Assembly (NCBI GenBank): GCA_003724185.1
Contig: RHGM01000001.1
Location: 973,343-1,037,342, forward strand
Direction of reading: 5' to 3'
Source of the DNA: Porphyrobacter sp. IPPAS B-1204
GTDB taxonomy: Bacteria; Pseudomonadota; Alphaproteobacteria; Sphingomonadales; Sphingomonadaceae
Length of the DNA stretch: 64,000 bases
A program made the position numbers and the translations under genes. Below the pieces are notes generated by a model. It ran no database searches and had not been told where the DNA came from. It was given only the letters and a program-made list of their open reading frames with translations. Positions 13,992 through 28,062 of this stretch are shown here, one piece after another (positions within the stretch are counted from its first letter, which is position 1; each line of letters starts with the position of its first letter).

Positions 13992-15005
13992 CTACAGCAG
14001 ATCGCGGCTTTCAGCGATGCTGGTGATGCCGCGCTTGCCATTCGCGTCGCGGCCCAGCTGCACGATCACATCGATCACGCTGGCCGCATAGGCGATGGTG
14101 TCACTGCGTGTCAGGCCGATCCCGGTCTGCATCACCATCAGCGAAAGCTGCTCCAGCGCGCCGCGCAGGGAATTGGCGTGGATGGTGGAAAAGCTTCCCG
14201 GATGCCCGGTGTTGATCGCACGCAGGAAGCTGACGCTTTCCGCGCCGCGCAACTCGCCCAGCACAATCCGGTCAGGCCGCAGACGCAGCGCGGCTTGCAA
14301 CAGTTCGTTGGAGGTGACCTTGGCTTCCCCCAGTTCACCCTTGACCGCGACGAGGCCGACAGCGTTGGCACCCGGAAACTTCAGTTCGGGCGTATCCTCG
14401 ACCAGAACCACGCGCTGGCCTTCGGGGATTTCGCCCAGCATGGCATTGAGGAAGGTGGTCTTGCCGGTGCTGGTCCCGCCCGAAATCAGGATGGTGCGCC
14501 GCGCCCGGATCGCGGCGCGCAGGTATGCGATGGGCTGCGCCTGCGGATCGGGCAGATCAATTTGCAGTTCGCCCGCCAAGGGACCGCTGTCATAGGCGTC
14601 CAGTGGCAGGTCAAGGCGGCGGTGGCGGCGGATCGCCATCACCCAATGCTTGCGCGCAGCGGGCGGCCCGCAGAACTGCACGCGTGCGCCGTCCGGCAGG
14701 GTTGCGCCCAGCAAAGGGTGTTCGCGATTGATCCCCTGATGGCTGACCCGCGCCACCTGTTCGGCGAGGCGCTGCACCAGCCGGTCATCAATCTCAGGCG
14801 TGTCGATGCGCTGCATCCCGGGATTGGAGGCGTCCTCAATCCACACCTCGCCGGGGCGGTTGACCATGATTTCGGTCACGGTGTCGCGCTCCAGCCAGCG
14901 GCGGAAGGGCGCGAGATAGGCGTCAAGATAGACGCTGCGCTCTGCCGAAAGCGGCACTGCCGCCGCCTCCTCGCCCCCGCCAAGCCGGTGGATATCCGCG
15001 CTCAT
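13992..15005 (-). CDS. virB11: VirB11-type secretion ATPase
   Basis: A 337-residue hexameric traffic ATPase of the VirB11/GspE family, expected at the inner-membrane base of a type IV secretion system. It has the N-terminal domain ('VTEIMVNRPGEVW', near residue 43), Walker A 'GGTSTGKTT' (176-184), an Asp box 'VVLVEDTPEL', Walker B 'RIVLGELRG', and a His box 'NTGHPGSFSTIHANS'. It is the last gene of the virB operon, four bases after the virB10 stop. A 158-bp gap separates it from ppk1. Confidence 0.93.
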   Translation of the reverse strand: MSADIHRLGGGEEAAAVPLSAERSVYLDAYLAPFRRWLERDTVTEIMVNRPGEVWIEDASNPGMQRIDTPEIDDRLVQRLAEQVARVSHQGINREHPLLGATLPDGARVQFCGPPAARKHWVMAIRRHRRLDLPLDAYDSGPLAGELQIDLPDPQAQPIAYLRAAIRARRTILISGGTSTGKTTFLNAMLGEIPEGQRVVLVEDTPELKFPGANAVGLVAVKGELGEAKVTSNELLQAALRLRPDRIVLGELRGAESVSFLRAINTGHPGSFSTIHANSLRGALEQLSLMVMQTGIGLTRSDTIAYAASVIDVIVQLGRDANGKRGITSIAESRDLL

Positions 15006-15009
15006 CAGC

Positions 15010-16146
15010 TCAGTTGACCGTGCTGAAATCGAGATCGCGGGCGGTGAAGATCTTGATCGGCTCGCCTGCGCGCACGCGGATCGTGGGGCTGATCTGGCCT
15101 TGGGACTGCACCGAGGAATTGGCCGCGCTCTGCGCCCCGCCCGCCACGATCACGCCGCCGACACCGCCGGTCGCGATCGCGCCAAGGCCGCCGATCACCG
15201 AAAACAGCAGGCCCGATCCGAAACGCTTGAGGAAGTGGCTGTTGACGTCACCCTCAAGCCCGGTGGTGCCATCGAACCCGACCGCGGGCGAGGCGATGTT
15301 GATCGACGCGCCATCGGGCCGGATCAGCCGCGTCCACACTACATAGGCGCGGCGCTGGCCCTGTTCGACACCCGCCTGATACTGCCCGATCAGGCGTGAG
15401 GAACGCGGTACCAGCACGCGCTTGCCATCAAAGCTGCGCACGTCCTGGCTCACCACGGCGCGCACGTAACCCGGCACATCGGTGTTGATCGCGGTTTCCA
15501 GCACGGCGGGGATCAGCGTGCCTTCGGTCACGGTGGTCGAAGGGTTGGTCATCGCCCGCGCCTGTGCAGGCGCGCCGCCCACCCCGCCGACACGGCTGGC
15601 AAATTCTGCCGCCCCGCCGGTGCCTGTCACCGTGCCAGCAGCGTTCGCCGCCGGAACGCCCAGCGGCGCCTCTGCCTGACGGATGCTGCGCGCGCTTGTC
15701 GCATCGAACACCAGCTGCGGGCTGGCATAGGGGTTGGCCGAAGGCACGGTCATCAGGTTCGGATTGTTCGCCAGCACCGCCATCGGCGCCGGATCGGTCT
15801 GCGGCACCACCGGCACCGCGCCCGGCTGCTGCGCGGGATCGCCGACCGGCTGCACCGGCGCGGGCGCAGCGGCCTGCGGCGGAGCGACGTTGGGATTGCC
15901 GATGCCCTGCGGTTCGGGCGTGCGCGCAGAGTTCATCGCCCAGAAGGTCACCGCCCCCAGCAGGCCCACGACAGCCACCCCGGCAGCGAGCCCCAACCCG
16001 TCACCCTTCGCCTTGCGGTCAGTGACGGCGGGGAAGGCCGCCCGGCTGGCAAGATCAATGATCTCGGCGCTTTCCCGCTCCCGCGGATCACCCTCGGTGG
16101 AAGCGGCGTCACCCTTCTTGGGCGGCAAACGCATGGCCAGACGCAT
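15010..16146 (-). CDS. virB10: VirB10/TrbI-type envelope-spanning channel protein
   Basis: A 378-residue protein. A cytoplasmic tail (1-45) precedes one membrane helix (about 48-68, 'GLAAGVAVVGLLGAVTF') and a Pro/Ala-rich periplasmic linker (about 75-125). The C-terminal TrbI domain, which forms the outer-membrane pore with VirB9, covers about 190-375 with 'LIPAVLETAINTDVPGY' and 'DGKRVLVPRSSRLIGQY'. It would link inner-membrane energy to the outer pore. The ATG overlaps the virB9 stop (ATGA). An in-frame ATG four codons further on is an alternative start. Confidence 0.9.
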   Translation of the reverse strand: MRLAMRLPPKKGDAASTEGDPRERESAEIIDLASRAAFPAVTDRKAKGDGLGLAAGVAVVGLLGAVTFWAMNSARTPEPQGIGNPNVAPPQAAAPAPVQPVGDPAQQPGAVPVVPQTDPAPMAVLANNPNLMTVPSANPYASPQLVFDATSARSIRQAEAPLGVPAANAAGTVTGTGGAAEFASRVGGVGGAPAQARAMTNPSTTVTEGTLIPAVLETAINTDVPGYVRAVVSQDVRSFDGKRVLVPRSSRLIGQYQAGVEQGQRRAYVVWTRLIRPDGASINIASPAVGFDGTTGLEGDVNSHFLKRFGSGLLFSVIGGLGAIATGGVGGVIVAGGAQSAANSSVQSQGQISPTIRVRAGEPIKIFTARDLDFSTVN

Positions 16147-16958
16147 CAGTTGGTCTCCCTTGAAGGCATGGATCGGTCAAGCGCGGCGCTGCGAGCGGCA
16201 GGCCGCGCCGGGCCGGTGTTGGTGAGCGTTGCGGTGTCGCGGCCCGATCGCAGGATGATGCGCTGCGGCACCCCTTCGACCACCACCGTCTCCCCGCGCA
16301 CGATGAAGTTCACCGGGCCTTCATCACCATCGTCATTGGTGATGAGAATGGCCGGGATTGCCGTGCCTTGCGGCCAGGTCAGGAACACCGCATCGCCATT
16401 GTCATAGGCCCGCGTGGGCAGCAATCCGGGCGCCCCGGCGCTGGCCCATTCGAAATTCAGCTGCGATGGATCGGTGACGGCAAAAGGGTCTGCGGCGGCC
16501 ACCACTTCGACCGGATCATCAAGTGCCCGCGCTGCCTGCGCCTCGGCCTCGGCGATGGCGGCAAGGCGGGCTTCCTCGGCGGCTTTCTCAAGCTCGGGAT
16601 AGCGGAATTGCAGGACGTAAAGCGCGGCATTTCGCGGACTTGCGACAAGATCGAACAGATAGGTGCGCTTGTCCGTCACCACCGTCATATTGGTGCGCGC
16701 GTCAACTTCGAGCGGCTTCACGAACAGGATCGTCTGCGCCTTGTTGGGCTGCACCTGCCACGCCAGCGAATCCCCGATCGCGACGTTCTCGATCACCTCG
16801 TCGGGCGCGAACTTGATCGTGGTCTGGACCTTCACCTTGCCATCGATCCGCACCACGGCATTTTCATTGAACACCAGCGTTTGCAGGCGGTTATCCTGAG
16901 CGGCAAGGGGCGCGGCAAGGCCGAGGGCGAGGCTCACGAGGAGCGCGGCGCGGGTCAT
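16146..16958 (-). CDS. virB9: VirB9-type outer-membrane-complex protein
   Basis: A 270-residue periplasmic protein with signal peptide 'LALGLAAPLAAQ'. The N-terminal VirB9 domain shows 'ENVAIGDSLAWQVQPN' and 'KRTYLFDLVA'. The C-terminal domain 'FVRGETVVVEGVPQRIILRSG' is the part that contacts VirB10 and VirB7. No VirB7 lipoprotein is seen next to it. It is coupled on both sides by ATGA overlaps (virB6 upstream, virB10 downstream). Confidence 0.88.
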   Translation of the reverse strand: MTRAALLVSLALGLAAPLAAQDNRLQTLVFNENAVVRIDGKVKVQTTIKFAPDEVIENVAIGDSLAWQVQPNKAQTILFVKPLEVDARTNMTVVTDKRTYLFDLVASPRNAALYVLQFRYPELEKAAEEARLAAIAEAEAQAARALDDPVEVVAAADPFAVTDPSQLNFEWASAGAPGLLPTRAYDNGDAVFLTWPQGTAIPAILITNDDGDEGPVNFIVRGETVVVEGVPQRIILRSGRDTATLTNTGPARPAARSAALDRSMPSRETN

Positions 16959-18157
16959 TGGTAGGTCTCCGATGGAGGTGTCGCTTTGGGTGCAGGGGCA
17001 GGCTTGCCCGATCCGGCCGAGCGGAAGCGGTTGCCGATCCCGCGGGTGCGCGATGCGGCGGGGTTGAGGGGGGTCACCTGCCCGCCCCCGCTGCTGGTCG
17101 CCAGCACCCGGGTTTCACGTGAAACACTGCCTGCCGGCCCTGAATCATTGGCGGCAACCACAGGCTGGAGCCCGCCAAGCTCGGTCCTGCGCGGGGCAAG
17201 GCCGGGGCTGGACGCGGCAATGTTCGTGCTGCGCGGCGCTGTGCCGACCGGCTGCGGCACCGGCACGGGCCGCGGGCCATCATCGCTGCGGCTGCGATCC
17301 TTCGAAGGCACCAGACCGAACACCTGCCAGCCCGCCACCATGGTCGAGGCGACCTTCAGCGAGAGCAGCATCAGCGCCATGTGCACCGCGCCGATCAGGA
17401 AGAACGCCATCGCCGCCTGCTGGTCGATCTGGCCCGGCACCGCCACCAGCGCGGCCAGCACCGGCACGGCCATCTCCAGCATGATCGACCCGCCCAGCAC
17501 TGCGAACAGCGGCGCCAATGCCATCATCGTCAGCCCCTTGAGCCAGCCGGTGAACAGCCCGCGTGTGCCTTCGAACAGCGCCAGCACCACGAAAATCGGC
17601 CCCAGCGCCAGCAGCAATGCCAGCGCGATCCGTGCTGTCACCAGAAGGCCGACCGTGCCGAGCAACAGCAGCATCGCCCCGATCCACATCATGCCCGGCG
17701 GCGAGAAGGCGCTGATATCCTTGGTATCCCCGCTCGCCTGCTGGATCGCGAGGAACACCACATCAAGCTTCTGCGCGAACACCGCCGTGGCGCTTTCGCC
17801 CTGTGTGCCTGTCAGAATGCCCGCGATCTGGTCCGGCCCGCCGATGAAGATGTTGTAGAAGATCGTCGAGAAGGCGACAAAACTGGTCGCAAAGGTCAGG
17901 ATCAGCCCCAGCGTCATCATCTTGGGCAGCAAGGCGCGCACGCCAAGGTTGGCGCGGCCCAGCATCAACGAGATGCCGAAGAACGCGACATACAGCCCCA
18001 GCAGGATCGTCAGCGCGAAAGCGAGCTGTCCCTCTGTGCCGAACAGCCGGTTGAAGGCCTGTTCGCTGACCCCGCTGGCGATGCAATCGACCGCGCTCAG
18101 CGCTGCCGAAACACCGGTGCCCATGGCCTGGGCCGCCATGTCGCAGGTGGTGGTCAT
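16955..18157 (-). CDS. virB6: VirB6/TrbL-type polytopic inner-membrane protein
   Basis: A 400-residue protein with five to six strong hydrophobic segments between about 45 and 290, a periplasmic loop between the early helices, and a long hydrophilic, Pro/Ser/Arg-rich C-terminal tail (about 295-400). This matches VirB6, the inner-membrane channel component of type IV secretion. The assignment rests on topology, 'FALTILLGLYVAFFGISLML', and operon position between virB4 and virB9. Starts with ATGA overlap on virB4. Confidence 0.85.
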   Translation of the reverse strand: MTTTCDMAAQAMGTGVSAALSAVDCIASGVSEQAFNRLFGTEGQLAFALTILLGLYVAFFGISLMLGRANLGVRALLPKMMTLGLILTFATSFVAFSTIFYNIFIGGPDQIAGILTGTQGESATAVFAQKLDVVFLAIQQASGDTKDISAFSPPGMMWIGAMLLLLGTVGLLVTARIALALLLALGPIFVVLALFEGTRGLFTGWLKGLTMMALAPLFAVLGGSIMLEMAVPVLAALVAVPGQIDQQAAMAFFLIGAVHMALMLLSLKVASTMVAGWQVFGLVPSKDRSRSDDGPRPVPVPQPVGTAPRSTNIAASSPGLAPRRTELGGLQPVVAANDSGPAGSVSRETRVLATSSGGGQVTPLNPAASRTRGIGNRFRSAGSGKPAPAPKATPPSETYQ

Positions 18158-20595
18158 TCCGCCGCCTGCCAGATGGTCTGGCCGTCTTCGTCAACTTCGC
18201 CATCGGGCCAGGCGCGGCCAGTCAGTGCCGGGAACCATGCCGCAGGCTGATCGCCCACCGCCTCGCGCAGCAGATCGAGCCTGCGCACCGCGCTTTCGCG
18301 GCCCGAAAGGATCGTCAGCACCTCAGGCGCGCCTGACAGGTCCAATCGCACCACCACGCTCGCATCGGGCTGGCGCACAAGGAAGCAGCGCGAGTGCGCG
18401 GGCAAGGACCGGATCAGCGCGAATTCGTGATCGGTCAGGCCGAACCCGTCGCAGTAATCTTCCGGCCGGGCGCGGCTGTTGGGCATGAACACCATCGTCG
18501 CGGTCTGTTCGACCAGCGCGGTGGAAATCCGGCTGTCGAGCGCATCGCGCGCCGACTGCGTGGCAAAGCCCACCAGCGCATTGCGCTTGCGCAGCGTCTT
18601 GAGCCAGTCGCGGATGCGCGCGGCGAAAACCTCGTCATCCAGCGCCTTCCAGCCTTCATCGATCAGGATCATAGTCGGCTGACCGTCCAGCCGCTCGTCG
18701 ATGCGGTGGAACAGGTACATCATGGTCGGCGTGCGCAGCCGCGGATTTTCGAGCAGCGCGGTCATGTCGAAGCCCAGCACCCGCTCGGCCAGATCGAGCC
18801 GGTCGCGTTCATTATCGAACAACCACGCGTGCTCGCCGCCGTCGCCGGAGGGGCTTCCGATCCAGGCGCCCAGCCGATCGGCCAGATCGCCGGGTTCAGG
18901 GCGGCGGGCACCTGCCAGCAATTCCTTGAAATGCCGCAGGCGGCGCAGCGAGGGGTCATTGCCATAGGTTGCATCAACCGCGGCGCTGATCGTGGAGAAT
19001 TCCTCCGGCCCCTCGGCCTTGAGCAGCACGGCGAGCCAATCGCGCAGGAAAGCGCGGTTGGCAGGCGTATCGGGCAGGCTCAGCGGGTTGAACCCGGTCG
19101 GTTCGCCCGGCGAGATACGGTCATAGCGCCCGCCGATCCCGCGAATGAACAGCTCCGCCCCGCGATCCTTGTCAAACAGGATGGTGCGGGGTTTGAACTT
19201 CTGCGCCTGCGCGGCAAGGAAATTCATCACCACGGTCTTGCCCGAACCCGACGGGCCGATGACGCTGAAATTGCCCAGATCGCCGTGGTGGAAATTGAAG
19301 AAGAACGGCGTGGCGCTGGTCGTTTCCAGCAGCGTCACCGCATCGCCCCAGTGGTTGCCGCTCGCCTGCCCCAGCGCAAAACCGTGGAAGCTGCCGAAAC
19401 CCGCCATATTGGCCGAGGAAATCAGCGCACGGCGGACGATATATTCCTCGTTGCCGGGGAATTGCGCCCAGAACGCGGGTTCAAGGTTGGTGTCCTCACG
19501 CACCGCGATCGCGCCGGTATCGGCCAGCGCTGCGGTGCAGGACGCCATGGCGTCATCCAGTGCAGGCAGCGTCTTTTCACGCACCAGCACGGTGAGGTGA
19601 TGATCGCCAAAGCCCACCGCCCCGTTGCCCAGCGCATCGCGCGCGGCCATCATCTCACCGCGCTCGGCAGCAGCTTCCTCGTCCACCGAACGCGAGCGGC
19701 GCAGCGCGAGATCGATCCGCTCCTTCGCGGTCGTGCGTTCGTTCGGGGCGTAGCTTTCCGTGACCACCATCTCGAACGGCAGGCGCAGCAGGTTGTCGAG
19801 CAGGCCGGGCGAGGTCGCCTCGGGGTAATCCTTCAGCCCGAGAATGGCGGCAAAATCGGGCGCAGCCGACCCGCGCAGCTCCATCGCGTCCAGCCCGAAA
19901 CTGGCGCGGCGATAGGGCAGCATGTGGCCGATATCGGTTTCAGGCGCAGGGCGGCGCACCGGGCGCATCTCGCCATTGTAGAGCGCGCTCAGCAGCTCCA
20001 GCATCTCCGAATTGGTGCCCTCGTCGCTGACCGGCGACTGGTAATCGCCCAGCACCGCTGCGCCGTAGTTCTGAAGCGAGGCGACGAGGCCTGTGATCGC
20101 GGCTTTCAGGCTGCGGATGTCCTTGGGATCGGCCTCAAGCTCGTCCTGCCCTGCGCGGGAAAAGAACTTCGAAAACCGCTCCGGCAGACCCGTCTTGCCG
20201 CGTGCAGGACGGCGGATCAGGGTGACGAACTGATCGTTGATGAACAGCGATCCGCCCGCCAGCCGCTGCTTCCAGCGCGCATCGATATGGCGCGACAGGG
20301 CGTCAGGAAATTCCGCCTCCAGCTCCACTTCCACCCGGCGGCGGATGACGTGGTGATACATGACAAACCGCGCATCGAGCGTCGAGCGCAGCATCACCTC
20401 ACGCGTGGCGGCGTGGGCGTTGAGAGCGTCTGAATCCTCGGTCTCGAACAACAGGCCCGGCACCTGAATGGCGCTCATCACGCTGCCATCGCGCAGCAGC
20501 ACGGTGTTTTCGTCCACCAGCCGCGCATAGGGCAGGCGGTCGCCGACGCGGGCTTCCTTCGCGCTCCAGGCGGCGGGTCCGATCCATTTCACCAT
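18154..20595 (-). CDS. virB4: VirB4-type secretion ATPase
   Basis: An 813-residue AAA+ ATPase, the universal type IV secretion motor. The N-terminal CagE/TrbE-like domain covers roughly residues 1-400. The C-terminal ATPase has Walker A 'GPSGSGKTVVMN' near residue 445, Walker B 'MILIDEGWKAL' near 645 and the downstream 'FATQSARDALDS' helix. Length fits the family. The ATG is 12 bases after the virB3 stop, and its own stop overlaps the virB6 start. With VirB11 it would energise pilus assembly or transport. Confidence 0.93.
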   Translation of the reverse strand: MVKWIGPAAWSAKEARVGDRLPYARLVDENTVLLRDGSVMSAIQVPGLLFETEDSDALNAHAATREVMLRSTLDARFVMYHHVIRRRVEVELEAEFPDALSRHIDARWKQRLAGGSLFINDQFVTLIRRPARGKTGLPERFSKFFSRAGQDELEADPKDIRSLKAAITGLVASLQNYGAAVLGDYQSPVSDEGTNSEMLELLSALYNGEMRPVRRPAPETDIGHMLPYRRASFGLDAMELRGSAAPDFAAILGLKDYPEATSPGLLDNLLRLPFEMVVTESYAPNERTTAKERIDLALRRSRSVDEEAAAERGEMMAARDALGNGAVGFGDHHLTVLVREKTLPALDDAMASCTAALADTGAIAVREDTNLEPAFWAQFPGNEEYIVRRALISSANMAGFGSFHGFALGQASGNHWGDAVTLLETTSATPFFFNFHHGDLGNFSVIGPSGSGKTVVMNFLAAQAQKFKPRTILFDKDRGAELFIRGIGGRYDRISPGEPTGFNPLSLPDTPANRAFLRDWLAVLLKAEGPEEFSTISAAVDATYGNDPSLRRLRHFKELLAGARRPEPGDLADRLGAWIGSPSGDGGEHAWLFDNERDRLDLAERVLGFDMTALLENPRLRTPTMMYLFHRIDERLDGQPTMILIDEGWKALDDEVFAARIRDWLKTLRKRNALVGFATQSARDALDSRISTALVEQTATMVFMPNSRARPEDYCDGFGLTDHEFALIRSLPAHSRCFLVRQPDASVVVRLDLSGAPEVLTILSGRESAVRRLDLLREAVGDQPAAWFPALTGRAWPDGEVDEDGQTIWQAAE

Positions 20596-20607
20596 GAGGC
20601 GGCGTCC

Positions 20608-20892
20608 TTAAGGCGCATAGGAATTGCATCCCCAGCGCTTGTAATTGGGCACGCGCGGGCATTTCGAAACCTTGGTGATCCACAGGTCGAAAATGCGCGG
20701 TTCGCGCAGCGAAGCGAAGTAGCCGATCACGTGCATCACCACCGGCACCGGCAGGATCCACCAGCTCTTCAGGATCAGGAAAGCGATCGTCGTCACCATC
20801 AGGTTGATGATGAAGAAGTTCATCGTCACGCCCGCGAACATCTGCGGGCGGGTGAGCGCGCGGTGCACGGGGTTGCGGACGAGATCGCTCAC
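20608..20892 (-). CDS. virB3: VirB3-type inner-membrane protein
   Basis: A 94-residue protein with one hydrophobic hairpin (about 25-60, 'MNFFIINLMVTTIAFLIL' then 'WWILPVPVVMHVIGYFASL'), preceded by the VirB3 signature 'VHRALTRPQMFAGV'. VirB3 works with VirB4 and the pilin. I chose the GTG at 20892, four bases after the virB2 stop and with AGG upstream. A TTG at 20925 would overlap virB2 by about 30 bases. In this operon virB3 and virB4 are separate, not fused. Confidence 0.85.
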   Translation of the reverse strand: MSDLVRNPVHRALTRPQMFAGVTMNFFIINLMVTTIAFLILKSWWILPVPVVMHVIGYFASLREPRIFDLWITKVSKCPRVPNYKRWGCNSYAP

Positions 20893-20896
20893 GGGC

Positions 20897-21208
20897 CTAA
20901 CCTGCCGCCGACTGGATGCCGGCAACGATGGTGGTCGCGCCGAACAGGATGAAGACGCCGATGATCACTGTCGCGCCGAAGCGCCAGTTCATCCGGCCGG
21001 TCAGCATCATGAAGCCGATGGCCGCCACCGCCATCACCGCAACGGTGGTCGCCACCGTGCCCAGCAGCGTCCCCTGCAACCACAGCAGCGCATTGTTGAT
21101 CGGGCCGGAGCCTGCGGGGTCCGCGCCTTGCGCAAAAGCGGCAGCCGGGGTGAGCGCAAAGGCCAGCATTGCAGCAAGGCGGGCAGGAAGGCGGAAAAGC
21201 GACGTCAT
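20897..21208 (-). CDS. virB2: VirB2-type pilin subunit
   Basis: A 103-residue small protein. The signal peptide ends 'TPAAAFAQG'. The mature part has two hydrophobic helices joined by a short basic turn: 'TVATTVAVMAVAAIGFMMLT', 'GRMNWR', 'FGATVIIGVFILFGA'. This is the classic VirB2/TrbC pilin layout, packed in membrane before extrusion as a pilus. It starts 48 bases downstream of the lytic transglycosylase gene and is followed by virB3 four bases later. Confidence 0.9.
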   Translation of the reverse strand: MTSLFRLPARLAAMLAFALTPAAAFAQGADPAGSGPINNALLWLQGTLLGTVATTVAVMAVAAIGFMMLTGRMNWRFGATVIIGVFILFGATTIVAGIQSAAG

Positions 21209-21256
21209 GGTGATACTCGTGTTCCTTGGGTTCCGGGCGAAATCGCGCCGATGGTC

Positions 21257-21916
21257 CTATTTGTCATACGCTGGCGGACGGGAATGGTTTGCAAGACGCC
21301 CCATGATCGCAGCGACATATTGTTTTGTCTCCCGGATATTGGGAATGCCCCCGGCCCGTTCGACCCGTCCGGGGCCGGCATTATAGGCAGCGAGCGCCTT
21401 TTCAATATCGCCATCGAACCGATCAAGCTGTTCGCGCAGGTAACGCGCGCCGCCTTCGAGGTTCTGGAACGGATCGCGCGAGTCAACGCCGAGGTAACGC
21501 GCCGTGCCCGGCATCAGCTGCGCCAGACCCTGCGCACCGACTGGCGAGACAGCGTTTTCGTTCCAGCGGCTTTCCTGCCACACCACCGCTTCGAGCAGGC
21601 TTGGGGAGAGGTCGAACCTTGCTGCCAGTTCGAGGATCTTGGCGTGGTAGCGCGGCGGAATGCCCGCAGCGTTGCGCGCGGGATCGGCAATGGCGTGTTC
21701 CGGCAGCACGGGCGCATCGGCCCATTCTTCACCGGATGCGGAGAGGGGCAGCGAAGGCGCGGCGGCAGGGTCGGTGCCAACCGGCGCAGCGGCCAACGGC
21801 CCTGCGACCCAGCGCGCACCATCGGCCCCCAGTTCCAGCACATCGGCCTGGGCCTGGGCCGCACACCCGGCCGCAACAGCAACAATCATGACGCGGCAAG
21901 CCGCGGCGAGAATCAT
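21257..21916 (-). CDS. Lytic transglycosylase (VirB1-like), first gene of the secretion operon
   Basis: A 219-residue exported SLT-family muramidase. It has a signal sequence (1-24) and a low-complexity Ala/Pro region (about 40-85). The catalytic domain shows 'LLEAVVWQESRWNENAVSP' with the catalytic Glu at residue 115, then 'GAQGLAQLMPGTA', 'NLEGGARYL' and 'ALAAYNAGPGRV'. In type IV secretion operons this protein opens the peptidoglycan for the apparatus (VirB1 role). The ATG at 21916 has GGAGGG upstream and is 39 bases from a perfect Pho box, so it probably leads a phosphate-controlled operon. Confidence 0.9.
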   Translation of the reverse strand: MILAAACRVMIVAVAAGCAAQAQADVLELGADGARWVAGPLAAAPVGTDPAAAPSLPLSASGEEWADAPVLPEHAIADPARNAAGIPPRYHAKILELAARFDLSPSLLEAVVWQESRWNENAVSPVGAQGLAQLMPGTARYLGVDSRDPFQNLEGGARYLREQLDRFDGDIEKALAAYNAGPGRVERAGGIPNIRETKQYVAAIMGRLANHSRPPAYDK

Positions 21917-21955
21917 GTCTCGGCCCTCCAGAATGTCCCCCTTTGTCTATCCTAA

Positions 21956-21973
21956 ATGACAGGCGGGTGACAG
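21956..21973 (-). promoter_or_regulatory. Perfect PhoB (Pho) box in front of the type IV secretion operon
   Basis: On the minus strand: CTGTCAC-CCGC-CTGTCAT. Both 7-mers match the Pho repeat exactly, at the standard 11-base spacing and in the orientation of the lytic transglycosylase gene. A TAGGAT/TAGACA -10-like stretch follows within about 10 bases. The PhoB assignment comes from the known family consensus. Confidence 0.75.
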
Positions 21974-22037
21974 CCCGGTGAACGCCCGCCGAAAGCCCGG
22001 CCAAGCGGCGGCCGCGCAGCACGCCGCCCGGACAGCA

Positions 22038-22074
22038 GAACGGGCGGGCCGCACCTGTGGCTGCCCGCCCGTTC
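22038..22074. repeat. 12-bp inverted repeat, possible terminator of the TPR gene
   Basis: GAACGGGCGGGC and GCCCGCCCGTTC pair perfectly around a 13-nt loop, about 50 bases past the stop codon of the minus-strand TPR gene. There is no T run, so it may be a transcript-stabilising hairpin. Confidence 0.5.
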
Positions 22075-22125: not shown

Positions 22126-22524
22126 TCAGTCGCGCAGGGTCAGCTGCTCGCTGCGGGCTGGCGCGGCGCGGAATTCTCCGCGTTCGAGCATCTTGATCGC
22201 CTTGCGTGCGAGGCGGCGCGAATCGGTGCTGTTGCCATCGGCGGTGTCGAGCTCGATCACCTCGTGACAGGCGAGCGCCTGTTCAAAGGCAGCCCGCGCC
22301 TTCATGTCATCGCCTGCCTGCGCGTAGGCAATGCCGAGATTGATCAGCACAGCGGGATCATGCGGATCGGCCGCGCTGGCCTTTTCAAGCGTCGCGAGCG
22401 CCTGTTCGGCGTTACCGGTGGCAAGCGGTTGCACGGCGAGTTCCGGCGCGGCGGCCAGAGCGGCCACCGGTGCCTGCGGCAGCGGTGCAGCGAACAGCGC
22501 AAGGGCGAAGGCGGTAACGGACAT
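22126..22524 (-). CDS. Small exported TPR-repeat protein
   Basis: A 132-residue protein with an N-terminal signal sequence ('MSVTAFALALFAAP') and about two TPR units ('AEQALATLEKASAADPHDPA', then 'LINLGIAYAQAGDDMKARAA', residues ~37-85), followed by a basic tail. TPR proteins of this size are usually scaffolds; no enzyme activity is implied. I chose ATG 22524, which has GGGAG nearby and gives the signal peptide directly; ATG 22554 is a longer alternative. It is divergent from the lipoprotein/TonB-receptor pair and shares their AT-rich regulatory region. Confidence 0.72.
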   Translation of the reverse strand: MSVTAFALALFAAPLPQAPVAALAAAPELAVQPLATGNAEQALATLEKASAADPHDPAVLINLGIAYAQAGDDMKARAAFEQALACHEVIELDTADGNSTDSRRLARKAIKMLERGEFRAAPARSEQLTLRD

Positions 22525-22835
22525 TGGCAAGGCTCCCTCTTGATCGAAGGGCATAATGACTCGCCTTCGCCCCGGATGCAACAAAACCGTAACATTGTAA
22601 TTTTTCTGTAATGCAAAGAGCCAAATTTCTGTTTTTACGTCTTTTCTTTGTTACAGCCAGCTCGCATCACGCCTGCGGCTGATTGTCATATTTGTCTTTC
22701 TTCAGTCATAATTCGCAGACTGACACATCACTGTAACGCTGAAAGAATTCTGACACGCCCGGACCCTAGCGCCCCCTCAGCGCATCAAATCCAAGCGCCT
22801 AACTCGATTCTCGGCTCAAGAGGGGACCGCTCGCT
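22525..22835. other. 311-bp AT-rich divergent promoter region with Pho-like repeats
   Basis: This stretch between the TPR gene and the lipoprotein gene has no plausible gene. It is much more AT-rich than its flanks (about 22580-22760) and contains several CTGACAC/CTGTAAC-type heptamers, annotated separately at 22720-22756. A weaker pair, TTGTAAT-TTTT-CTGTAAT, is at 22595-22612. Confidence 0.6.
22720..22756 (+). promoter_or_regulatory. Tandem Pho-box-like sites upstream of the lipoprotein/TonB-receptor pair
   Basis: Two repeat pairs at the Pho spacing: CTGACAC-ATCA-CTGTAAC (22720-22737) and CTGAAAG-AATT-CTGACAC (22739-22756). They match CTGTCAC/T at 5-6 of 7 bases per heptamer and lie about 80 bp before the GTG start, in the correct orientation. 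A CCTAGC -10-like element follows at about 22765. Confidence 0.5.
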
Positions 22836-24401
22836 GTGAAAAATTTCCAACGCACTCTGATCATGGGTTGCAGCCTGGTCGCTCTGGCAGGTTGTGGCGC
22901 TGATGAAATCGTCTCGCCCGGCACCAGCGGCGACATCATCATCAACAACCCGCCGCCCTCGCCCACGCCCACTCCGACGCCGACGCCGACCCAGTCGCTC
23001 GTCACTCCGGCAGGCGGCTGCCCGACCATCGCCACCGCAGGCGGCCTGATTGACCGTCAGACCCTTTCCGGCCCGACCGGCACCTACCGCGTGTGCGAAC
23101 TTCCGGCCCGCTTCACCGCCAGCGACACGCTGCCCTTCGTGCGGGGTCTGGTTTACCAGATCAACGGCCGCGTCGAAGTGGGCGCAGATCGCGGCTTTTC
23201 GAGCACTGGCACGACTGTCACGCTGACGGTTGAGCCGGGCGTGATCTTCTTCGCGCAGCAGGATTCGTACCTCGTCGTCAACCGCGGCAACGCGATCCAG
23301 TCGAACGGCACCGCCGATCGCCCGATCATCTGGACCAGCCGCGACAACATCGTCGGCGTGGCCAATGACAACAGCCAGCAGCAGTGGGGCGGCGTCGTGC
23401 TGCTCGGCCGCGCGCCGCACTCGGATTGTTCGACCGGTGTGTTCAACACCACTGCCAACCCGAACGCCAACCCGACCTGCGAAGGCCGGTTGGAAGGCGC
23501 GGCAATCGCCACGCCCTACGGCGGCGCAAACCCGGCGGACAGCTCGGGCTCGTTCCGTTTCAACCAGATCCGCTTCTCGGGCTTCGAACTGGCGCCGAAC
23601 AACGAACTCCAGGCGCTGACCACTGGCGGCGCGGGTTCGGGCACCACCATCGAGAACCTCGTCTCGTTCAACAGCTCGGATGACGGCGTCGAATTCTTCG
23701 GCGGCGTGCTCAACATGCGCAACCTCGCGATCATCGGCGCATCGGACGATTCGCTCGACGTCGACACCGGCGCGGACGTGAACATCGACACCGTGATCGC
23801 GGTGCAGCGCTCGACCACGGGCGACCGCCTGATCGAACTCGATTCGCCCAACGTGGCTGATCGCACCCCGTCGAATGCCATCCCGCAGACGCGCTTCCGC
23901 GTGAACAACTTCACCTTCGTCGCCCGCGATGGCGCGCCGCAGGTGGTTCAGGCCCGCGGCGGTGCAGCACTCAGCCTCACCAACGGCGTGATCAATGCCG
24001 GCACCAACCACTGCTTCCAGATCGACGAGCCCGCCACGCTGGCCGCGCTCATCGGGGTGGATTCGGTGGTGGGCGATTGCCCGACCGGCAACATCGCTCG
24101 CGGCGGCGCAGGCGTCACCAACGACCAGGCGCTGGCTGCGGTCAATGGCGGCACCAACAACAACTTCGCCTTCGCCATCACCCTGACCAACAATGTGGTC
24201 AACGGCGCGGGCGAAACGGCGCGCACCGCCTTCAACGCCAACACCCGGTCGACCTTCTTCCCGACCCGCACCTTCATCGGTGCAGTCCAGAACGCGGCGG
24301 CGCTGAGCACCACCTTCGGCAACTGGACCTGCAACTCGTCGATCCAGAACTTCAACAGTTCGACCGGCGCCTGCACCTCGCTTCCGGTCTATCCGGCCTA
24401 A
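22836..24401 (+). CDS. Large surface or secreted lipoprotein, probable beta-helix, function unknown
   Basis: A 521-residue lipoprotein. The lipobox 'LVALAGCG' places the lipidated Cys at residue 20, followed by a Pro-Thr spacer (about 40-53, 'PSPTPTPTPTPTQ'). The rest is Asn/Gly/Thr-rich with repeated short strands ('GTTIENLVSFNSSDDGVEFF', 'GVLNMRNLAIIGASDDSLDV'), typical of a right-handed parallel beta-helix. Cysteines occur as a few pairs ('HSDCSTG', 'NPTCEG'), suggesting disulfides. The GTG start has AGGGGA upstream. It precedes a TonB-dependent receptor by 98 bp, so the two probably form a capture/uptake pair. Pho-box-like sites upstream suggest phosphate starvation control. No enzyme motif is seen. 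Confidence 0.75.
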   Translation: MKNFQRTLIMGCSLVALAGCGADEIVSPGTSGDIIINNPPPSPTPTPTPTPTQSLVTPAGGCPTIATAGGLIDRQTLSGPTGTYRVCELPARFTASDTLPFVRGLVYQINGRVEVGADRGFSSTGTTVTLTVEPGVIFFAQQDSYLVVNRGNAIQSNGTADRPIIWTSRDNIVGVANDNSQQQWGGVVLLGRAPHSDCSTGVFNTTANPNANPTCEGRLEGAAIATPYGGANPADSSGSFRFNQIRFSGFELAPNNELQALTTGGAGSGTTIENLVSFNSSDDGVEFFGGVLNMRNLAIIGASDDSLDVDTGADVNIDTVIAVQRSTTGDRLIELDSPNVADRTPSNAIPQTRFRVNNFTFVARDGAPQVVQARGGAALSLTNGVINAGTNHCFQIDEPATLAALIGVDSVVGDCPTGNIARGGAGVTNDQALAAVNGGTNNNFAFAITLTNNVVNGAGETARTAFNANTRSTFFPTRTFIGAVQNAAALSTTFGNWTCNSSIQNFNSSTGACTSLPVYPA

Positions 24402-24457: not shown

Positions 24458-24499
24458 GTTCGCTTCCAGACTGACCATTTCTTGAGGGGGTCCTCACCT

Positions 24500-27211
24500 A
24501 TGTCGACCGGCACGCGCCTGGCAGGGCTGCTGCTTCTCACCACATCGCTCACCTTGCCGTCGGTCCTGCATGCGCAGGAAGCGCCGCAGGACGAGGACGC
24601 GCTGACCGAGGAGGTAGAGGGTGAGGAACCGCCCGAAGAAGAGCTGCAGGATACCGATATCTCGGTCCCCGGCGGCGGGATCATCGTCACCGGCCGTCGC
24701 AACCGCGATCCGGCGCGCAATTCGGGCCAGGTGCTGACTGTCCTTTCCGAAGCCGACATCGCCCGCACCGGCGAAGGCGATATTGCAGGTGCGCTGGCGC
24801 GCGTCAGCGGTCTATCGCTGGTCGGCAACGGCCGCGTCTTCGTGCGCGGTCTGGGTGACCGCTATTCGCTCGCCCTGCTCAACGGCCTGCCGCTGCCCAG
24901 CCCCGAACCGCTCAGCCGCGTGGTCCCGCTCGATATCTTCCCGACCAGCGTGATCGCATCGTCGCTGGTGCAGAAGACCTATTCGGCCAACTTCCCGGGC
25001 GAATTCGGCGGCGGGGTGATCAACCTCACCACCAAGGCGATCCCGACCGACGACTTCCTCACGGTTGGCTTTTCCGGCAGCGGCGATACCGAAACGACGT
25101 TCCAGAACGGCCTGACCTATTTCGGCAGCCGTTGGGACACTTTCGGCTTCGACAACGGCAACCGCGATTTCCCCACTGCACTGCAAGGCCTGATCGCCAG
25201 CGGTACGCGCGTCAATGATGCGCCTGCTGACGTGCAGCGCCAGCTGGCCGGGCAGATCATGCCGCTCAATCTGGTGACGCTCCAGAAGAACGATAACCTG
25301 CCGATGAACTTCAGCGCCAACATCACCGGCGGCGCTTCGTTCGAAGTGGGTGACGGCGATTACATCGGCCTGATCGCGACCGCCGGGATTACCAACACCT
25401 GGCGCAACCGCAATGTCACCAGCCAGCAGTTCGGCGATGCCGAAGCGGGCCAGCTTCTTTTGGACTCGCAGAACTTCATCACCGACAACAAGGTGCTGGT
25501 GAACGGCCTGATCGGCTTGGGTTTCGACATTGGCGAACACACGATCCGCTGGACCAACCTCTACATCCGCGACACCCTCAAGACCGCGCGTCTGGCGACC
25601 GGTACTGACAGCTTCACCGATGTCGCACGGCCGTTCGAATTCCAGACCCAGCAGACCGGTTGGTTCGAACGCCAGCTGATGGATTCGCAGATCGTCGCGG
25701 AATTCGAATTCGACAAGTTCGAGGTCGACCTGCGCGGCGGCTATGCCCGCACCGATCGCGAAGCACCCTACAACGCCATCGTCCCCTATATCCGCACCAA
25801 CATCCCCGGCGATCCCTTCGGCGACAAGTTCGTGGTCGATGTCGGCGCGCAGATCGGTGGCACGGAGCGTATCCAGATCGGTTTCGAAGACCTCACCGAA
25901 GAGCTGTGGTTCGGCAGCGCGGACGTAAGCTTCGAAGTGACGGACACGCTGTCGCTCACGGCTGGCTATGCCTATTCGGACACTACCCGCCGATCGATTT
26001 CGTTCATCATCCGTCCGCTGATCGACTCCACGGCGGAGTTCAACACCGCACTGCGCGCTTTGGGTCTGCGCCGTCCGGGGGACATCATCAATGGCGCCAC
26101 GCTGGCGACAGATGCCAACGGGGTCGGCTTCTTCAACGTCACCGTCTCTGACCCCACCCCCTTCCCGGTGTTCGATGCCGCGCTGACCACGCATGCAGGC
26201 TACGGCCTTGTGCGTTATCGTCCGACCGATCGTCTGAACATCGAAGCGGGCCTGCGTTACGAAGACGGGCTTCAGGTTGCGGCACCCGATCTGACCTTCG
26301 GCGGCGGCAATCTTGCCAACCCGACGCGAATCGCCAACGATTACTTCCTGCCGTCTGCCACCGTGACGTGGGAGGTGATCGACGATCTCCAGCTGCGCTT
26401 CTCGGCCTCGCAGACCATCGCCCGCCCGCAATTCCGCGAGTTGGTCGAACAGACCTATTTCGATCCCGAATCAAACCGCCGTTTCCGCGGGAACCCGTTC
26501 CTGCAGGACAGCGAGCTGATCAACGCCGAAGCGCGCGCCGAATATTACCTTGGCGGGCCGAGCAAGATCAGCCTTGCGGGCTTCTACAAGGAAATCGACA
26601 ACCCGATCGAAAACTTCCTGATCACCGCGCCCGGCATCATCGAAACGAGCTATGCCAACGCACCCTCGGCCCAGCTTTACGGTGCCGAGCTTGATCTGGC
26701 CTATGGCATCGATCTGGCCGATTGGGGCGGGTTCTTTGAAACCAAGCAGTTCCTGATCATCGCCAACTACACCTACACCCAGTCGGAAATTCAGGTTGGC
26801 GCTGATGATCTGGCACCCATCCCCGGCGCGACCGGGCAGCTGGCCAGCCAGCTGTTCGATGACGGTTCGCCGCTGGTCGGCCAGTCCGATCACGTCGCCA
26901 ACCTGTCGCTCGGCATCGAGGATCTCGACAAGGTCCAGCAGTTCACCGTGCTGTTCAACTACGCCAGCGAGCGTGTGACCCTGCGCGGCGGGGCGCTGCC
27001 CGATGTGGTGGAAGATCCGGGCCTGACGGTCGATCTGGTGGCACGTTCGGCGATCAAGCTGGGCGGCCTGCCGCTCGAACTGTCGCTGGAAGCCCGCAAC
27101 ATCTTCGGGCGCGACAATTTCGAGTTCCAGGAAGTGAACGGCAACCGCGCCGAGATCAACACCTTCGATGTCGGGACGAGTTTCGCCATCGGATTGAAGG
27201 CGGAATTTTAA
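24500..27211 (+). CDS. TonB-dependent outer-membrane receptor paired with the lipoprotein
   Basis: A 903-residue receptor. The signal peptide ends 'SVLHAQE', an acidic stretch follows (about 30-50), then a plug with 'GGGIIVTGRR', 'VFVRGLGDRYSLALLNGLPL' and 'FPGEFGGGVINLTTKAIP', and a barrel ending 'VGTSFAIGLKAEF'. The 'VRGLGDRY' plug pattern marks a proteobacterial receptor subgroup often found beside a large lipoprotein. I chose ATG 24500 because it has GAGGGGG upstream; the frame stays open back into the lipoprotein gene, but that part is a shadow of it. The substrate is unknown, possibly a phosphorus-containing compound given the upstream boxes (inference). Confidence 0.87.
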   Translation: MSTGTRLAGLLLLTTSLTLPSVLHAQEAPQDEDALTEEVEGEEPPEEELQDTDISVPGGGIIVTGRRNRDPARNSGQVLTVLSEADIARTGEGDIAGALARVSGLSLVGNGRVFVRGLGDRYSLALLNGLPLPSPEPLSRVVPLDIFPTSVIASSLVQKTYSANFPGEFGGGVINLTTKAIPTDDFLTVGFSGSGDTETTFQNGLTYFGSRWDTFGFDNGNRDFPTALQGLIASGTRVNDAPADVQRQLAGQIMPLNLVTLQKNDNLPMNFSANITGGASFEVGDGDYIGLIATAGITNTWRNRNVTSQQFGDAEAGQLLLDSQNFITDNKVLVNGLIGLGFDIGEHTIRWTNLYIRDTLKTARLATGTDSFTDVARPFEFQTQQTGWFERQLMDSQIVAEFEFDKFEVDLRGGYARTDREAPYNAIVPYIRTNIPGDPFGDKFVVDVGAQIGGTERIQIGFEDLTEELWFGSADVSFEVTDTLSLTAGYAYSDTTRRSISFIIRPLIDSTAEFNTALRALGLRRPGDIINGATLATDANGVGFFNVTVSDPTPFPVFDAALTTHAGYGLVRYRPTDRLNIEAGLRYEDGLQVAAPDLTFGGGNLANPTRIANDYFLPSATVTWEVIDDLQLRFSASQTIARPQFRELVEQTYFDPESNRRFRGNPFLQDSELINAEARAEYYLGGPSKISLAGFYKEIDNPIENFLITAPGIIETSYANAPSAQLYGAELDLAYGIDLADWGGFFETKQFLIIANYTYTQSEIQVGADDLAPIPGATGQLASQLFDDGSPLVGQSDHVANLSLGIEDLDKVQQFTVLFNYASERVTLRGGALPDVVEDPGLTVDLVARSAIKLGGLPLELSLEARNIFGRDNFEFQEVNGNRAEINTFDVGTSFAIGLKAEF

Positions 27212-27387: not shown

Positions 27388-28062
27388 TCACCCCAGATCG
27401 AACACATACCCCAGGGACCGCACGGTGCGCAGCGGATTGCCGCCACCCGCTGCCTTGATCGAGCGGCGCAGGCGGCCGATCCAGACATCCACCGTGCGCT
27501 CGTCAATCGGCGGTTCGCGCTTGCCCAGCCCGCTGATCAGATCCTCGCGGGTCAGCACCCGGTTGGGGTTTTCAGCAAGGAAACGCAGCAGCCGGAATTC
27601 GTTGGGGCGCAGGATGATCGGCTCGCCCGCCCAGCGCGCCTGAAGCGCGGCCATGTCGATCACCAGCGCGCCCAGTTCGAATTTCTGGGTCGCATGGCGC
27701 TCAACCCCCCGCGATTGCAGGGCGAGAACGCGGTCAAGCACGGCAGTGCGAGTCAGCGGGCCGACCACGTAATCATCCGCCCCGGCCCGCAGCGCCCGGC
27801 GGCGGTCCTCGGGGTCGTTCTCTTCCAGCACCATCGTCACGTGCGCTTCGGCGGTGCGCGGATCGGCGCGCAGGCGGCGGCACATCTCGAGGCCTGCAAG
27901 ATCGGGCATCACCCAGTCGACAAAGGCCCACATCGGCCCTTCGACCAGCCTTCGCGGGCCTTCAGGGCCAAGCTTGTCGAAGGTAAAGCGACGCTGATCG
28001 TGCACGAAATCATCCAGGCTTTCGCCCAACTCGCCCGTCAGGAAGATATTGACGACATCCAT
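27388..28062 (-). CDS. Winged-helix (OmpR/PhoB-type) response regulator with a degenerate receiver
   Basis: A 224-residue DNA-binding regulator. The C-terminal half (about 125-224) is a clear PhoB/OmpR winged helix: 'LRPNEFRLLRFLAENPNRVL', 'DERTVDVWIGRLRRSI', 'RTVRSLGYVFDLG'. The N-terminal receiver keeps the fold and an Asp at 49 ('VDWVMPDLAG') but lacks the acidic pair after the first strand ('NIFLTGELGES'). The Thr/Ser after strand 4 is replaced ('TMVLEEN'), and the invariant Lys is Gly101 ('YVVGPL'). It may therefore work without classic phosphorylation. No sensor kinase lies nearby, and a Pho-box-like site lies 43 bp upstream. Confidence 0.85.
   Translation of the reverse strand: MDVVNIFLTGELGESLDDFVHDQRRFTFDKLGPEGPRRLVEGPMWAFVDWVMPDLAGLEMCRRLRADPRTAEAHVTMVLEENDPEDRRRALRAGADDYVVGPLTRTAVLDRVLALQSRGVERHATQKFELGALVIDMAALQARWAGEPIILRPNEFRLLRFLAENPNRVLTREDLISGLGKREPPIDERTVDVWIGRLRRSIKAAGGGNPLRTVRSLGYVFDLG

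Follow-up and report, generated by a model that had tools for sequence, protein, structure and literature searches.

A virB operon with a predicted PhoB-activated promoter in Porphyrobacter and its possible relation to the type II secretion systems of sister species

In the stretch of 64,000 nucleotides from Porphyrobacter sp. IPPAS B-1204 analysed here (contig RHGM01000001.1, positions 973,343 to 1,037,342 of the forward strand; hereafter, the window), eight genes encoding a VirB-type type IV secretion system (T4SS) follow a promoter that carries a Pho box. Control of this operon by PhoB at phosphate starvation, which an earlier sequence-only reading of the window had proposed, is predicted with high confidence, because the box has left a footprint across the family, the promoter is laid out like those of the pst genes, and PhoB is encoded in 49 of 49 genomes. 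The operon probably belongs to a Pho-regulated surface module together with a divergently transcribed pair of genes for a lipoprotein and a TonB-dependent receptor. In sister species, such a pair adjoins a type II secretion system (T2SS), which suggests that one machine took the other's place. A more tentative proposal is that a domesticated, conjugation-derived VirB apparatus without VirB8 and VirD4 replaced the T2SS as the phosphate-starvation exporter in the Erythrobacter group, with the regulon and the client genes kept.

All eight genes lie on the minus strand, and Pfam searches bore out the gene set originally proposed, in which a transglycosylase gene leads virB2-3-4-6-9-10-11. These are virB1, encoding a lytic transglycosylase (SLT; 21257..21916; PF01464, 3.8e-27), the pilin gene virB2 (20897..21208; PF04956, TrbC/VirB2), virB3 (20608..20925; PF05101; the start given is that of the longest open reading frame, and the true start is probably further in), the ATPase gene virB4 (18154..20595; PF03135, CagE_TrbE_VirB; TIGR00929 at 720 bits, above the cut-off), virB6 (16955..18157; PF04610, TrbL/VirB6), virB9 (16146..16958; PF03524, CagX), virB10 (15010..16146; PF03743, TrbI; NF038091 at 191 bits, under the cut-off of 220), and the ATPase gene virB11 (13992..15005; Pfam T2SSE; TIGR02788 at 291 bits, above the cut-off). 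They are tightly spaced or overlapping, as had been noted, with intergenic distances of -29 to +48 bases from virB1 to virB11. By Pfam and NCBIfam, the core set of a type IVA system (the VirB4 and VirB11 ATPases, VirB9 and VirB10, and VirB2, VirB3 and VirB6) is complete, and the closest solved structure for VirB4 is that of R388 TrwK.

In its gene content (VirB1, 2, 3, 4, 6, 9, 10 and 11) and VirB-like gene order, the locus resembles the VirB/VirD4 (type IVA) systems, but it differs from them in several missing components. The VirB8 profile PF04335 has zero matches at E <= 1 across the B-1204 genome, although a divergent VirB8 could escape this profile. There is no room for VirB5 or VirB7 reading frames between the operon genes, no VirD4 coupling-protein gene was seen among the genes of the locus, and the identified flanking genes (ppk, ppx, and those for a TPR protein, the lipoprotein and the receptor) include neither a relaxase nor a coupling gene. 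VirD4-type proteins above the cut-off are encoded at three other sites of the B-1204 genome (the third at C8:34 kb); both of the loci that were read encode TrwB adjoining a TrwC relaxase. These two modules (L128 at C6 1.43 Mb, near an AbiEii-type gene, and L129 at C8 83 kb) probably belong to mobile elements.

A VirB4 search of 196 genomes of the order matched 89 at 1e-50; the 48 relatives with VirB4 identity of at least 74%, all from the same family, were taken as the orthologue set, and 12 more distant ones served as a comparison. The order from virB2 to virB11 on a single strand is retained in 48 of 48 relatives, and virB1 was matched in 46 (not in L083 and L086). Over the whole genomes of these relatives, PF04335 has no match in 33, a match above the cut-off in 14, and a weak match in 1 more, never at the virB locus.

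The Pho box of the operon, CTGTCAC-CCGC-CTGTCAT, was found where the sequence-only reading had placed it, on the minus strand at 21956..21973 and 39 bases before the virB1 ATG at 21916. Its two direct heptamers, separated by a 4-base spacer, agree with the direct repeat CTGTCAY in the correct orientation. A third and weaker half-site, CGTTCAC (minus strand, 21978..21984; 0.33-0.48 bits in columns -9 to -7 of the aligned promoters), precedes the box and keeps the 11-base register, and a predicted -10 hexamer, TAGGAT (minus strand, 21949..21954), begins one base past the second heptamer, with the conserved form TAnnnT and with the same spacing as in pst promoters. Read on the minus strand from 21984 to 21949, the promoter is CGTTCAC-CGGG-CTGTCAC-CCGC-CTGTCAT-T-TAGGAT. 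The exact sequence CTGTCAYNNNNCTGTCAY occurs once in the 3.55-Mb B-1204 genome; with up to 2 mismatches there are 60 matches, against 22 for a reversed control pattern, and the 64-kb window has 4 against 0.86 expected from shuffles. A scan of 99 family genomes with the exact pattern gave matches in 11, too few to define a regulon.

Conservation of the box before orthologous operons had been named in advance as a check, and the box proved to be widely kept. It has at most 2 mismatches in 41 of the 48 relatives, mostly 48-61 bases before virB1, and more than 2 in L043, L048, L058, L074, L081, L083, and L086 (3 in each of the last two, measured from virB2). A second set consisted of 80 loci, the best 80 of 569 matches and partly from the same species as the first set, in Erythrobacter, Porphyrobacter, Qipengyuania, Tsuneonella, Citromicrobium, and other genera; of the 75 that could be scored (L181 and L201, at contig edges, and 3 further loci were left out), 67 have a box with at most 2 mismatches. 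Pooling the promoters (identical ones removed, the window included, and L083 and L086, which lack virB1, omitted) gave 112, of which 99 retain the box at this threshold. Because the box is kept across relatives, a chance match can be excluded. In the VirB4 tree, the orthologue set, most of it boxed, forms one clade (109 of 109; support, 0.993). Of the virB operons that are related to this one but distinct from it, 12 of 12 have a best match of 3-6 mismatches within the 400 bases preceding the first gene, and the idea that a Pho box is a general trait of this kind of VirB system was rejected.

Information content was computed on 102 aligned promoters with at most 3 mismatches. The heptamer columns hold 1.5-2.3 bits apart from the first C of each heptamer (0.9 and 0.3), the spacer columns hold 0.2-0.55 bits, and the flank more than 10 bases upstream mostly holds less than 0.1. 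Information is also high in TAnnnT, one base past the box, and, 28-29 bases from where the box starts, in a CA. This conservation profile is that of a predicted promoter with an activator site covering the -35 region.

The B-1204 genome encodes a PhoB orthologue above the curated cut-off (TIGR02154), 48 of 48 relatives encode an orthologue of their own, and the B-1204 protein contains the helix RTVDVHIRRLRKA, which we take to be that of Escherichia coli PhoB. The same profile has eight additional, weaker matches in this genome, one of which (window positions 27388-28062) is an OmpR-type response regulator whose receiver domain aligns only from profile position 47. The pst region of B-1204 carries, on one strand, a histidine kinase gene that by its position is phoR, the box CTGTCATAAACCTGTCTC, pstC, a second permease gene, phoU, and phoB; the box, CTGTCAT-AAAC-CTGTCTC, is one mismatch from the consensus. 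Matches with 1-4 mismatches were found upstream of pstC in 10 of 30 relatives (L210-L218 and L235), and the typical form of these promoters within the genus is YTGTCATNNNNYTGTCTT-A-TTTNTT-CAA-CA. The 20 other relatives have no clear box immediately before pstC; further upstream, 6 have one before a PstS-type gene (1-3 mismatches) and 12 before a porin-like gene (2-4 mismatches; in L249 and L258 as the second-best match only), and in L244 and L255 the region upstream of pst has no box. In L246, the sequence TTGTCAT-GAGC-CTGTCAC-A-TAACTT-CAA-CA precedes a PstS-type gene whose product is a PBP_like_2 protein, and the virB promoter, CTGTCAC-CCGC-CTGTCAT-T-TAGGAT-AGA-CA, agrees with it in spacing and register. 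The half-sites, the -10 spacing and the downstream CA are thus common to the virB promoter and to the pst promoters of several relatives. In L240, L245, L247, and L259, heptamers in the 11-base register also stand before a porin-like gene with a signal peptide near pstS; the porin label is our own reading.

Divergently from the operon, on the plus strand, lies the gene for an ElpS-like lipoprotein (“up521”; 22836..24401), followed by one for a TonB-dependent receptor (24494..27211, start approximate; PF00593, 9.4e-33, and PF07715). Pho-like heptamers with 2 mismatches, CTGACAC-ATCA-CTGTAAC, precede the lipoprotein gene (22720..22737, plus strand; pattern scan). The lipoprotein, of 521 residues, has a lipobox (LAGC, residues 17-20) and a threonine/proline linker, and no Pfam or NCBIfam family was assigned to it. 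Its structural model (mean predicted local distance difference test score, 84.3; residues 1-42 poor) has a strand-rich, beta-helix-like fold, and comparison with PDB gave no sequence match and no significant fold match (best E value, 0.017; mostly beta-helix enzymes). When 385 genomes of the class were searched with a profile, 9 of them, B-1204 among these, proved to encode the lipoprotein. In 94 lipoprotein promoters, the best sense-strand match has 1-3 mismatches in 85 and 4-5 in 9, whereas on the antisense strand 7 have 3 mismatches and 87 have 4-7; the forward score exceeds the reverse one (Wilcoxon, 3e-16, with related loci counted separately). Among random 250-base windows in T2SS loci, 3.6% have a match with at most 3 mismatches.

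The box of the virB operon goes together with these neighbours. This was counted in 104 distinct promoters for which 3 kb or more of upstream DNA was available. Where the lipoprotein gene or the gene for a small TPR protein between it and the operon is present, 84 are boxed and 2 are not, as against 8 boxed and 10 box-less where both genes are absent (Fisher, 9e-8). The sequence-only reading had held that absence of the box from close relatives would refute PhoB control. This refutation fails, since most of them carry it, and 10 of the 12 box-less promoters come from loci where the lipoprotein and TPR genes are missing too. Parsimony on the VirB4 tree gives 11 changes for the box and 16 for the neighbours (L083 and L086 counted as box-less), and the tips without neighbours are box-less in 10 of 18 cases, compared with 1 of 18 for their nearest neighbour-keeping relatives (some of them used more than once). 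Five of the 48 relatives have no lipoprotein homologue at 1e-10 genome-wide, and in 3 of those 5 the box departs from the consensus by more than 2 mismatches. The explanation that the box was lost because PhoB was lost was rejected, as PhoB is found in all 48. In L275 (genome G114), it is the pst region, and not the T4SS, that the lipoprotein-receptor pair adjoins, and the T4SS box has 3 mismatches. In L053 and L073, a distant lipoprotein subfamily (34% identity) stands beside the T4SS, yet the Pho box is perfect.

The distribution of the T2SS was compared in the 49 genomes with the T4SS and in 31 T4SS-less genomes, chosen among at least 46 family members without a VirB4 orthologue. GspD (TIGR02517) is above the cut-off in 2 of the 49 (B-1204 and G030) versus 23 of the 31, a contrast whose Fisher value (2.6e-11) is overstated through common ancestry. 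Eighteen of these 23 genomes have contiguous gspD-E-F on one strand (14 of them with gspC as well) and 5 have another arrangement; the contiguous type is found in 0 of 49 T4SS genomes, if those below the cut-off are taken as lacking GspD. The homologous lipoprotein-receptor pair lies upstream of gspC-D-E-F in 10 of the 18 (with a gap of 2.4 kb in G123). Besides these 10, L272 has the pair upstream of gspC-D-E-F. In G409, one of the 9 genomes from the class-wide profile search, the gene order is lipoprotein, receptor, gspC, gspD, gspE, gspF, as described for Caulobacter elpS, cc0171 and the T2SS genes (gsp families assigned by Pfam in G409, L272, and L276). At the 10 loci, the Pho-like score of the sense strand exceeds that of the antisense strand in 9 and equals it in 1, both before the lipoprotein gene and in the 200 bases past the receptor stop codon. 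Within the genus g15, G110 has a T2SS (the pair not beside it) and no T4SS, G136, G146, G150, and G186 have the T4SS and no T2SS, and G117 has neither. The T2SS of B-1204 is of a second type (L299; C6:963668-965479; GspD, 401 bits) and lies ∼8 kb before the window start and ∼22 kb from the T4SS; in G030, the distance between the T4SS and a T2SS of this sort is ∼52 kb.

The box, the promoter layout, its conservation, PhoB, the operon content, the linkage, and the T2SS relation are well supported. On this footing, the operon would encode a type IVA apparatus that is fixed in the chromosome and has no recognisable VirB8. The main promoter of the operon, of the pst type, would be activated by PhoB, so that the apparatus would be made at phosphate shortage. 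Within a Pho-regulated surface module, the apparatus would form the secretion arm, and the divergent, Pho-boxed lipoprotein and TonB receptor genes the other arm; in sister lineages, the homologous pair lies upstream of a T2SS operon, also with Pho-like boxes. The divergent lipoprotein gene, a steadier neighbour than ppk-ppx (in the locus in 40 of 48 relatives) and followed in the window by the receptor gene, points to secretion as the part played by the apparatus in phosphate scavenging. The position of the pair beside the T2SS in sister lineages makes a stand-in for the T2SS the role that we favour for the VirB apparatus, if only tentatively. The apparatus may export Sec-exported periplasmic proteins or place them on the surface, without a VirD4 coupling protein, and candidate substrates are phosphorus-releasing hydrolases or the lipoprotein itself; actual induction, the substrates, and the direction of transport we infer. 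Taken as a whole, with the transport step read broadly as export, this is in our judgement the best explanation, with about an even chance of being right.

Several observations weigh against it. The contrast between T4SS and T2SS is partly a single split in the tree, and Fisher values overstate its independence; GspD is below the cut-off also in 8 of the 31 T4SS-less genomes; B-1204 and G030 carry another type of T2SS as well; and 8 of the 18 loci with contiguous gsp genes show no such pair in the 20 kb that were read. Eight of the 18 promoters without neighbours are still boxed and 2 of the 86 with neighbours are box-less, the apparatus survives in box-less lineages and so has some use without the box, the pst regions of some relatives yielded no box, and the missing VirB8 could mean a partly different function. 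The lipoprotein tree, finally, interleaves T2SS-linked and T4SS-linked copies, so that a single swap, the pair being inherited vertically, is unsupported; together with the subfamily of L053 and L073, this tree suggests that the adjacency of pair and machine was probably remade or exchanged repeatedly.

Among the other explanations, the one that survives best, although unlikely, is that the PhoB-controlled apparatus is a surface pilus, adhesin or contact-dependent weapon for holding or attacking phosphorus-rich neighbours. The window encodes VirB1, the VirB2 pilin, VirB3, VirB4, VirB6, and VirB11, and the constant gene order in the relatives would suit such a use. However, the locus revealed no coupling-protein gene, the operon has no room for VirB5, the usual pilus-tip protein, and the relation to the T2SS would be left unexplained. 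We consider it distinctly improbable that the operon encodes a conjugation machine, left over or mobilisable, which landed behind a Pho promoter by chance. In favour of this are the best 5000 plasmid matches in the VirB4 search, of which 4201 come from plasmids called conjugative (the closest, on a Sphingomonas plasmid, has 54% identity), and the two TrwC/TrwB modules elsewhere in the genome; against it are the identified genes beside the operon, which include neither relaxase nor coupling gene, the gene order constant in 48 of 48 relatives, the single VirB4 clade, and the box retained in 99 of 112 promoters.

The sequence-only reading had itself suggested that DNA, taken up by the apparatus much as by Helicobacter ComB, serves as a source of phosphorus, and nothing found here supports this suggestion, although no survey of competence genes was made. 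The Pho control itself would fit DNA uptake, as would the lack of VirD4 among the genes of the locus, since ComB is a VirB-type system that also lacks VirD4. ComB, however, has VirB8 and no VirB11, the reverse of the situation here, where VirB11 is present and VirB8 undetected, and in 10 T4SS-less relatives the neighbouring pair adjoins the T2SS, an exporter; uptake is a slim prospect. Least credible of all is that the heptamer pair is read by an OmpR-family regulator other than PhoB: candidates exist in the eight weaker PhoB-profile matches (one of them in the window), but the like layout at pst in B-1204 and several relatives and the helix RTVDVHIRRLRKA, presumably that of the E. coli protein, speak for PhoB.

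If the proposed replacement of the T2SS by the VirB apparatus is true, it would be a natural case of one type of secretion system replacing another, and many species would have maintained a VirB machine in which VirB8 is not recognisable. The usual view of type IV systems is that of DNA movers or host-directed weapons, and we know of no agreed job for the chromosomal virB operons of free-living aquatic bacteria; a Pho-controlled virB operon, linked to a surface lipoprotein and TonB receptor and found where sister lineages have a T2SS, offers a nutritional role that is testable in cultured strains. The open-licence literature searched gave no account of a Pho-controlled virB operon in the Erythrobacter group, nor of a T4SS taking the place of a T2SS beside such a pair. 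In Agrobacterium, a VirB system is likewise tied to phosphate starvation, as virG is said to have been found induced by it (Winans 1990); there the effect reportedly runs through this regulator gene, whereas here the box is on the apparatus operon itself.

The nearest parallel is the elpS module of Caulobacter crescentus, in which elpS (cc0170) and cc0171 are followed by the T2SS genes gspC-N in order, ElpS is produced when phosphate is lacking, and overproducing it goes along with higher secreted phosphatase activity (PMC2996285); the T2SS is placed in the PhoB regulon in one (PMC11208175), whereas its expression is described as constitutive in the other (PMC2996285). Both loci would combine a surface lipoprotein and TonB receptor pair with an adjacent secretion operon and a phosphate-starvation response (PMC2996285, PMC11208175), a likeness drawn from the published description of cc0170. 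They differ in that the Caulobacter T2SS is in tandem with the pair, whereas here a VirB T4SS lies on the opposite strand with a Pho box of its own. PhoB also acts on secretion apparatus in Edwardsiella tarda, where it represses the type III and type VI secretion systems (PMC4415409); these are other types, and repression contrasts with the activation of a T4SS predicted here.

Between the operon and the lipoprotein gene, the small TPR protein is encoded on the minus strand (22126..22584; Pfam TPR_19), and both the TPR and the lipoprotein genes lie upstream of the operon in 40 of 48 relatives. The TPR gene was considered as a leader of the operon and rejected, the best oriented match upstream of it having 4-6 mismatches, except in L084 (3). 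This gene is separated from the Pho box and the virB operon by a GC-rich inverted repeat (window positions 22038-22074), whose arms are GAACGGGCGGGC/GCCCGCCCGTTC; a terminator scan found no T tract there.

On the other side, the sequence-only reading had pointed to a ppk1-ppx operon following on the same strand. Both genes were identified by Pfam and do follow virB11 on that strand after a 131-base gap; as a constant partner, however, ppk-ppx was rejected, as ppk is the next same-strand gene in only 21 of 48 relatives (otherwise placed in 6 and outside the stretch in 21). No Pho box precedes ppk in the window (best match, 5 mismatches). The best match before ppk has at least 4 mismatches in 22 of 27 relatives and 2-3 in L074, L081, L083, L085, and L086, that in L081 being a misplaced reading of the virB box.

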